From positions 1 through 35,845 of the forward strand of contig JAFZBJ010000009.1 in assembly GCA_017561835.1 (NCBI GenBank): a DNA stretch of 35,845 nt, given 5' to 3'. Each line of letters starts with the position of its first letter. Position 1 is the stretch's first letter. Under the pieces are notes generated by a model. That model did no database searches and was not told the origin of the DNA. It saw only the letters and a list, made by a program, of their open reading frames with translations. The DNA is from Candidatus Saccharimonadota bacterium (lineage in GTDB: Bacteria > Patescibacteriota > Saccharimonadia > Saccharimonadales > Saccharimonadaceae). Shown piece by piece: positions 9,731 through 11,652 of this stretch. The translations under genes were made by a program, and so were the position numbers.

Positions 9731-10090
9731 TTAAATCCGTTTGCACACAAAAAACTCCGCCAAAGCCACGAAAAGCGCAATTAAGGATATCGTCCAGAGA
9801 GTAACCGCGCCAAAAGACCGCGCGATAAGAAGCATTACTGGTCCAAATGCCGCCACCGCCGCATAGAGATAATCCTTGTTTCTAAAATTAGTGCGCTTCA
9901 GAGCTAATCTGTAAAAAATCTTGAGTAGAAATGTCATCACGCCAAAGGCAAAAACATAAACTGTTGTAAAAAATAATAAAACCCCTGACGGACCAATTTC
10001 CGTCGGAGATGTGAGATTTAGCATTAAGATTAAAACAGCCAAGCTGATGATGCTTGTAAGAATGATAATCCGGTTATGCTTCATAACCAT
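9731..10090 (-). CDS. Small multi-pass membrane protein
   Basis: 119 residues with about four hydrophobic segments (residues 7-26, 35-60, 73-92 and 95-114) and basic connectors such as RLALKRTNFRNKD. I do not recognise the family. It ends 18 bases before the next gene on the strand. Two ATGs are possible, at 10090 and at 10084 (Met3). A TACAAT box ends 6 bases before the second ATG, so a leaderless message starting at Met3 is possible; no Shine-Dalgarno is seen for either. Confidence 0.7.
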   Translation of the reverse strand: MVMKHNRIIILTSIISLAVLILMLNLTSPTEIGPSGVLLFFTTVYVFAFGVMTFLLKIFYRLALKRTNFRNKDYLYAAVAAFGPVMLLIARSFGAVTLWTISLIALFVALAEFFVCKRI

Positions 10091-10119
10091 ATTGTATCAC
10101 AACTGTTTGTAGCCCCCAA
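10091..10119 (-). promoter_or_regulatory. Promoter of the small membrane-protein gene
   Basis: TTGGGG (10119-10114) and TACAAT (10096-10091) are 17 bases apart on the minus strand. The -10 box abuts the first ATG and ends 6 bases before the second. Confidence 0.5.
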
Positions 10120-10139
10120 GTAATATTAACTGCGATCCC

Positions 10140-10488
10140 CCCTTAATGTACTTTATGGGAGAAAGCGGGCGGTTATCCGGCGCATTATACAATTACTTTA
10201 GGCCGCAACCGTAACCCCGCTTTTCTCTCTTTGACCGCTTCACGTATAGTGAAGCATTGATCCTTGTTAGTGTTTTCTCTTACTCTTGTTTATGTTGTGT
10301 TTGTTTTAGAATGTGCTAATAAGAGATTTACCAACGCGCTCAACGCCCTTGGCGGAGCTCTAGGTAATTCCTAATGATGTAATTTATGGCTAGAAATTAC
10401 CTTTTCACCCGCCAAATGCGGTTTCTAAGTCTTTTGTTTCATTTTAAAGTTCCTTTTGTTTTTAGTTTTTATCTTAGTCATCTCGACT
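10140..10488 (-). ncRNA. Candidate structured RNA, unidentified
   Basis: A gene-free 350-base stretch with strong nested pairing on the minus strand. TTGGCGG (10415-10409) pairs with CCGCCAA (10355-10349) and encloses GGTAATTTCT (10401-10392) pairing with AGGAATTACC (10372-10363). Further on, GCTTCAC/GTGAAGC form a perfect hairpin (10255-10237). GAGAAAAGCGGG (10227-10216) pairs with CCCGCTTTCTC (10169-10159) with one bulge and encloses GTTA/TAAC and CGGC/GCCG. A promoter precedes it. The GGCGG arm could pair instead with CCGC at 10421-10418, so a switch is possible. It matches no RNA class I know (not tmRNA, RNase P, SRP or 6S as I can recognise them). The 3' end is uncertain. Confidence 0.45.
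10425..10481 (-). CDS. Possible 18-codon leader ORF
   Basis: Near the 5' end of the structured transcript an ATG opens an 18-codon Lys-rich frame (MTKIKTKNKRNFKMKQKT, stop TAG). An internal ATG at 10442 has a good AAAGGA site 8 bases upstream and would make just MKQKT. The frame stops 9 bases before the first base-paired element. It could be a leader peptide coupling translation to RNA folding, or chance. No codon-level support is possible at this length. Confidence 0.25.
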   Translation of the reverse strand: MTKIKTKNKRNFKMKQKT

Positions 10489-10494
10489 GCTTTC

Positions 10495-10523
10495 ATATTA
10501 GCATAACCTGTTAAAAACTTCAA
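10495..10523 (-). promoter_or_regulatory. Promoter of the structured RNA
   Basis: TTGAAG (10523-10518) and TAATAT (10500-10495) lie on the minus strand with exactly 17 bases between them. The expected start is near 10488. An operator-like palindrome ends 20 bases upstream of the -35 box. Confidence 0.6.
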
Positions 10524-10542
10524 GCCTACTCGCCCAAAAATA

Positions 10543-10561
10543 TGTTGTATTATTTACAACA
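10543..10561. promoter_or_regulatory. Operator-like palindrome 1
   Basis: TGTTGTA, five bases, TACAACA: a perfect 7-bp inverted repeat. The same 19-bp site recurs at 10592-10610. It lies directly upstream of the structured-RNA promoter. The binding protein is unknown. Confidence 0.6.
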
Positions 10562-10591: not shown

Positions 10592-10610
10592 TGTTGTATT
10601 TTTTACAACA
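10592..10610. promoter_or_regulatory. Operator-like palindrome 2
   Basis: A second perfect copy of TGTTGTA-N5-TACAACA, centred 49 bp from the first. The two copies differ only in the spacer (TTATT versus TTTTT). Confidence 0.6.
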
Positions 10611-11294: not shown

Positions 11295-11652
11295 TGGTGG
11301 AGCTGCCGGATACTGCCTCCGGGTCCGAAAAATCACGTGGATATCATTCTACGCGTATAGTCTGCTGTTTCATCTCGGCGGATACTAGCAGCAGCAACAA
11401 ACCAAACTGCTAGACGCCATGACTAAATTTTCGAGCAACTTGTCGTCAGTTAAATCACCTTATTCCCGTTGTATGATAATTCGAATCCTACGGAACCTTA
11501 AATCCGAACCAGCCTATAGATATAAATTAGGCAAAAGCTGGCATGTATGCAACATGCGCAGTTTTAGTGTTTTTAGCACTTATTTAATACTTACGGTATT
11601 CAATCGACGCGCCTGATATCTGTTAATAATCCGTCTAAGCTTTGTCAGCCCC
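11295..11652 (-). ncRNA. ssrA: tmRNA
   Basis: 358 nt. The 5' end GGGGCTG pairs with CAGCTCC before an encoded ACCA, forming the tRNA-like acceptor stem. The tag reading frame resumes at GCT (11577) and ends TAA (11527), giving AKNTKTAHVAYMPAFA with a hydrophobic C-terminus for protease recognition. tmRNA acts with SmpB to rescue stalled ribosomes. Oddity: the T-arm is CCGGA-GGCAGTA-TCCGG, so the loop lacks the usual TTC and the conserved A at 58. Its own promoter lies upstream and a terminator downstream. The tag start is chosen by position after AAATAAGT and is likely but not certain. Confidence 0.9.

Follow-up and report, generated by a model that had tools for sequence, protein, structure and literature searches.

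Orphan large RNAs are not a new idea in themselves, and leader-peptide attenuators and termination-stalling leaders, which include the tnaC type, are likewise known. For the OLE RNA, the commonest immediate downstream neighbour is OapA, a small membrane protein with four predicted helices (PMC12265935). In the window analysed here (the whole stretch of DNA, 35,845 nucleotides in length, which is contig 22 of a 625-kb genome), we found a structured RNA gene of ~350 nt in Candidatus Saccharibacteria that runs on the minus strand from 10488 to about 10140. Comparative sequence analysis suggests that it is, rather probably, a free-standing ncRNA gene of a new Saccharimonadales class that acts in trans within a ribonucleoprotein, with its folding coupled to a mini-ORF in the genus of the window (g1).

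A scan of all 4227 Rfam families (Rfam 15) gave no match to the RNA even at permissive thresholds, and no description of it was found in Rfam 15 or in the literature searched, which comprised open-access papers, no preprints and few subscription papers. The RNA family is apparently undescribed and would constitute a new class. The first-pass annotation had proposed either a new structured ncRNA, to be checked against the Rfam covariance models, or a cis-regulator of the downstream genes. The former proposal has held up, the RNA being conserved, covarying, equipped with a promoter and matched by no known family.

Conservation and promoter of the RNA gene

The minus strand of the RNA region folds better than dinucleotide shuffles by 4.7 standard deviations (z -4.67), with 0 of 100 shuffles as good, and the plus strand gives a z of -3.5. 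When the 501-bp region was used as a BLASTN query, a match was found in 95 of 100 genomes of the genus, implying that the RNA locus is conserved far beyond chance; many of the best matches cover about positions 84-449 of the query, corresponding to window 10517-10152, from the promoter to P7. Loci that contain an invariant 20-mer from the RNA are labelled Candidatus Saccharibacteria in all cases but one, which bears just the label 'bacterium'; many come from the ruminant gut. A GC-rich hairpin is the probable 3' boundary of the RNA (Table 1). Some loci (L033, L037, L038, L042, L043, L047, L048 and L058) are enlarged by an insertion of as much as several hundred bases that separates the P1-P2 module from the remainder of the RNA. 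Two copies or matches were seen on separate contigs of one genome in G087, G059 and G488, reflecting contamination or duplication.

The TTGAAG-17-TAATAT promoter and the upstream operators named in the first-pass annotation are both present. Transcription is predicted to start at about 10488, and 65 of 90 loci passed a strict pattern search for the extended -10 element. In 71 of 81 loci the centre of the proximal palindrome falls between -65 and -63 relative to the predicted start. A second palindrome in relatives usually lies at about -123, mostly 56-60 bp upstream of the first (the commonest spacing is 59 bp, with 39 cases, and 58 cases fall within 56-60 bp). This fixed phasing suggests a class-I-like activator, and we infer that the operators would be bound by a dimeric regulator, probably an activator. 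Genome-wide there are 6 perfect operator sites, of which the 4 outside the RNA locus all lie within coding regions, and a regulon based on these sites was rejected. Half-operators, TGTTGTAAAAAATAC among them, appear again in L031-L050 at a distance of about 1.0-2.7 kb on the upstream side of the RNA, perhaps at other promoters, and from these a wider regulon appears possible.

Table 1 Features of the RNA locus in window coordinates.
Feature	Positions	Strand	Details and basis
tmRNA gene (ssrA), upstream of the RNA	11295..11652	-	Rfam match RF00023
Distal operator	10592..10610	.	TGTTGTA-N5-TACAACA; 49 bp from the proximal operator in the window
Proximal operator	10543..10561	.	TGTTGTA-N5-TACAACA; centre about -64 from the predicted start
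RNA promoter	10495..10523	-	-35 TTGAAG 10523-10518, 17 nt, extended -10 TGCTAATAT 10503-10495 (TAATAT 10500-10495); conserved
5' terminal hairpin	10476..10488	-	AGTC-GAGAT-GACT; kept in 29-locus alignment
Mini-ORF MKQKT*	10425..10442	-	Upstream SD AAAAGGA within 10457-10450
P1, 7 bp	10348..10416	-	10416-10410 with 10354-10348; compensatory changes, e.g. G-C to A-U
P2, 12 bp	10362..10402	-	10402-10391 with 10373-10362; G-C to C-G and A-U to U-A changes
P3 pseudoknot	10338..10358	-	GCTC 10358-10355 with GAGC 10341-10338; comparison of loci
P4	10266..10335	-	10335-10330 with 10271-10266; covariation E<=0.05
P5	10276..10326	-	10326-10318 with 10284-10276; covariation E<=0.05
P6, perfect 7-bp hairpin	10237..10255	-	GCTTCAC/GTGAAGC; compensatory changes in 4/7 pairs
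P7	10160..10225	-	10225-10216 with 10169-10160; covariation E<=0.05, model alignment only; poorly aligned in A1
P8	10170..10211	-	10211-10207 with 10174-10170; covariation E<=0.05
P9	10178..10205	-	10205-10202 with 10181-10178; covariation E<=0.05
3' GC-rich hairpin	10137..10161	-	CTCCC...GGGGGG, from sequence; no T run, no terminator-like site found there
Downstream-gene promoter	10091..10119	-	TTGGGG 10119-10114, 17 nt, TACAAT 10096-10091; near-leaderless
119-aa four-helix membrane protein	9731..10090	-	Synteny; AlphaFold model

A nine-helix fold with a pseudoknot

Nine helices were defined on alignment A1, a sequence-only alignment of 32 sequences from genera g1 and g11. In A1, 91.4% of the cells pair, compared with 40.8-47.5% when the partners are slid by 1-3 columns, and two-sided changes were counted in 38 of the 61 pairs. 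All nine helices, including the pseudoknot, show the compensatory changes among homologues that the first-pass annotation had suggested looking for. This comparison shows a predicted fold in which a 5' pseudoknotted module (P1, P2 and P3) is followed by P4/P5, by P6 and by a nested 3' arm (P7, P8 and P9).

A covariance model (R1) provided an alignment of 95 sequences for a tree-aware covariation test, our own implementation, in which substitutions are replayed on a FastTree tree. Of the 12 pairs that reached E<=0.05 on the R1 alignment, all 12 lie inside the proposed helices. Because this alignment is fitted to the structure and thus biased toward it, the test was repeated as a guard on a structure-blind MAFFT alignment, where 7 of 7 pairs at E<=0.05 fall within helices (P4, P5, P8 and P9). 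For P1, P2, P3 and P6 the support comes from compensatory-change counts on A1, not from the tree-aware test.

Of the helices described earlier, the 7-bp helix (P1), the perfect 7-bp hairpin (P6) and the long 3' stem (P7) were found again, and the 10-bp helix nested in P1 actually has 12 bp (P2); the pseudoknot P3 and helices P4, P5, P8 and P9 are new. P3 reads GCTTC/GAAGC in L034, L039 and L057, and P6 is flanked by conserved AAGGA and CGGTCAA. The P5 loop carries TAGCACATT, an AGYACMUU motif. In the distant loci L220, L222, L223 and L228, the leader has a second AGYACMUU motif besides the one in the P5 loop, a possible protein-binding site. A loop-loop pseudoknot between the P2 and P9 loops was unsupported (mean z -0.44).

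The earlier proposal of an RNA switch, in which a GGCGG arm has competing partners, did not survive the comparison: among 95 loci, only that of the window has the upstream CCGC partner. A P2-internal switch, GTAATTT/AAATTAC, is gone in genus g11, where P2 itself is retained via compensatory changes. Among these two alternatives no conserved mutually exclusive helices were found.

The P2 loop GCCATAAATTACA is invariant in most of the genus. Such invariant loop sequences (e.g. GCCAUAAAUUACA), together with the RNA's own activator-type promoter, would suit an antisense-type small RNA that pairs with mRNAs in trans through its conserved loops. We consider this very improbable, as the RNA is bigger and more elaborate than typical antisense sRNAs and it is the loops that vary between genera, whereas the scaffold stays constant.

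RNAs of the CPR can be diverged, as in the case of RNase P RNA (PMC8172020), and the RNA might accordingly be asked to stand for a strongly diverged housekeeping RNA, above all SRP RNA. Indeed, RF00169 was undetected in 20 Saccharimonadales genomes, 13 of high quality, in a first-look search of perhaps limited sensitivity, and a strict S-domain pattern gave no match in 12 genomes of the genus. Nevertheless, this identity is extremely unlikely. The window and two distant members gave no meaningful Rfam match at E up to 3-10, no conserved hairpin with the SRP tetraloop and symmetric loop was seen by eye, and the ends of the RNA do not pair with each other. In the SRP search itself, which covered G000 and 19 relatives, controls were positive in 11 of 14; the result may reflect loss of the SRP RNA, its divergence or a limit of the search.

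A mini-ORF in the leader of the genus

The tiny ORF had been read earlier as either MKQKT or 18 codons. The former stands (MKQKT*); the latter is not conserved, since L027 and L030 keep the 5' hairpin but not the ATG within it. A Shine-Dalgarno sequence with a 1- to 13-codon ORF ending near P1 was found in 56 of 80 g1 loci, compared with 5% of shuffled leaders, and this count is a lower bound because the filter skipped L005, L008 and L022, where a mini-ORF is visible by eye. In g11 it was found in 1 of 10 loci, compared with 15% in shuffles, and it was unrecognised in most other genera. The Shine-Dalgarno-led leader ORF expected of an attenuator thus occurs in g1 only, implying that the mini-ORF is not the core function of the RNA.

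In many of the mini-ORF loci the stop codon stands at one fixed distance from the core. Among 41 distinct peptides, a count that leaves out four entries of 1-2 residues and the one from g11, 39 have Pro or Thr as their last residue, compared with 9% P+T inside the peptides (binomial 6e-39, relatedness ignored); another subgroup has the peptide MKYK*. In E. coli, a C-terminal Pro can stall termination, an effect that ssrA relieves, and one stalling motif requires Thr, whereas in M. pneumoniae a C-terminal Thr or Pro is without effect on the expression level (PMC7246954).

Given that the mini-ORF stops just before P1, a terminating ribosome would hide P1. We propose that, in the genus only, formation of the P1/P3 pseudoknot may be coupled to translation. 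A ribosome finishing the 1- to 13-codon ORF would cover the 5' strand of P1 and hold P1 open, and upon its departure the pseudoknot would form. A bolder version, which we regard as distinctly unlikely, is that the RNA is a membrane-linked ribonucleoprotein throughout the family and that the genus RNA folds only once ribosomes have cleared a termination-slow mini-ORF, so that this RNA, encoded beside tmRNA, would report the capacity for translation termination or ribosome rescue.

Genomic neighbourhood and the downstream gene

To the left of the RNA lie gyrB, a VirD4/TraG-like ATPase gene and the genes of a 146-aa protein and a 119-aa membrane protein; to the right lie tmRNA and a ComM-like gene. 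A replication origin was rejected, the sign of the GC skew being unchanged through the window. A tmRNA gene was detected at 14 of 14 loci in one set and at 16 of the 20 distant ones. It mostly shares the strand of the RNA and lies upstream of it, but in G158 (L274) and G001 the two strands are opposite. The window tmRNA was matched by Rfam but not by ARAGORN, which points to a diverged tmRNA.

The membrane-protein gene stands beside the RNA in 19 of 20 distant loci. AlphaFold models the 119-aa protein as four helices (pLDDT 86.8); Pfam and NCBIfam gave no match to it, and the PDB gave no match to its fold below E 0.001. By synteny, the protein is a candidate partner of the RNA, and the RNA would work in trans as a component of a ribonucleoprotein that may include this protein.

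A separate, near-leaderless promoter serves the downstream gene: TAnnWT lies 3-12 nt ahead of its start in 90 of the loci examined (mostly TATAAT, TATGAT or TACAAT). A hairpin, GGTTATG-AAG-CATAACC (window 10072-10089), lies over the start-codon region of this gene. In the window, no clear intrinsic (T-rich) terminator stands between the RNA and this gene, so read-through is possible, and the fixed gene order likewise keeps cis-regulation conceivable. In such a case, the RNA would be a cis-acting leader or attenuator of the membrane-protein/T4SS-ATPase operon: a transcript begun at 10488 would extend into the operon, and the fold, and with it downstream expression, would depend on the ribosomes translating the mini-ORF. 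That the same gene almost always follows the RNA and that a leader peptide ends right before a helix, as in attenuators, speak for this. We give it a small chance all the same, because in 90 loci the downstream gene carries the promoter described above, terminator-like hairpins were seen by eye after the RNA in some relatives (L218 and L300), the mini-ORF is nearly absent from g11, the GGCGG competition is not conserved, and nine conserved helices exceed the needs of a simple attenuator. The cis-regulatory part of the first-pass annotation is therefore the less likely one, and the separate promoter and the elaborate fold together make a trans-acting RNA likelier than a leader.

Distribution across Saccharimonadales

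With R1, the RNA was found in 49 of 151 genomes of the family and in 17 of 61 genera. A second model, R2, trained on 20 sequences from more genera, added genera g30, g36 and g60, giving at least 20 genera of one family. In another family, f37, the R2 matches are weak (E 2e-6 and 4e-4) and the presence of the RNA is tentative; tmRNA is located elsewhere there, and the membrane-protein match is weak or missing. Twelve family genomes missed by the genome searches have the membrane protein, and in 7 of their 12 upstream stretches unfiltered R2 gave E<0.01, covariance-model E-values being rough; conserved motifs such as GCGGTCA are readable in 12 of 12. Five genomes of the genus (G036, G379, G015, G084 and G095) showed no RNA, no membrane protein and no tmRNA over the cut-off. 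An argument from co-loss was dropped, since the whole locus may simply be absent from these assemblies; the contig ends of two of them held none of seven locus proteins, which is not decisive on co-loss.

Saccharibacteria genomes measure 0.6-1.3 Mb, and the RNA is kept in a fixed place, usually beside tmRNA. Its retention in such small genomes across at least 20 genera suggests an important job. For a radiation that has been studied little, it would be an additional class of structured RNA, and its single promoter, operator pair, mini-ORF and candidate partner protein make sharp tests possible.

Comparison with known RNAs

6S RNA is a single long hairpin with a central bubble, in contrast to the multi-helix, pseudoknotted fold without an Rfam match seen here. 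tmRNA is a neighbour in most loci and is likewise a structured RNA with a tiny ORF (a likeness limited to the genus), but RF00023 matches only at 11295-11652 and our RNA has no tRNA-like end. With attenuators and stalling leaders the RNA shares a Shine-Dalgarno-led short ORF that stops just before a helix and whose last residue is reported to slow termination in some contexts; it differs in that the mini-ORF is not found in g11 above the shuffled rate, that it has a nine-helix fold of its own and that the downstream promoter is separate. Like GOLLD, ROOL and the raiA motif, it is an intergenic, multi-helix and strongly conserved orphan large RNA, but no covariance match links it to them and, as far as searched, it is limited to Saccharimonadales.

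OLE/OapA of Bacillota has a comparable layout, in which a large structured RNA gene is followed by the gene of a small four-helix membrane protein. OLE is longer, at ~600 nt compared with about 350 nt here, and its covariance model gave no match; the 119-aa protein differs from the OapA/CNNM family in matching neither Pfam or NCBIfam entries nor a PDB fold, and belongs to a different phylum. We read this likeness as an analogy of layout rather than as membership.
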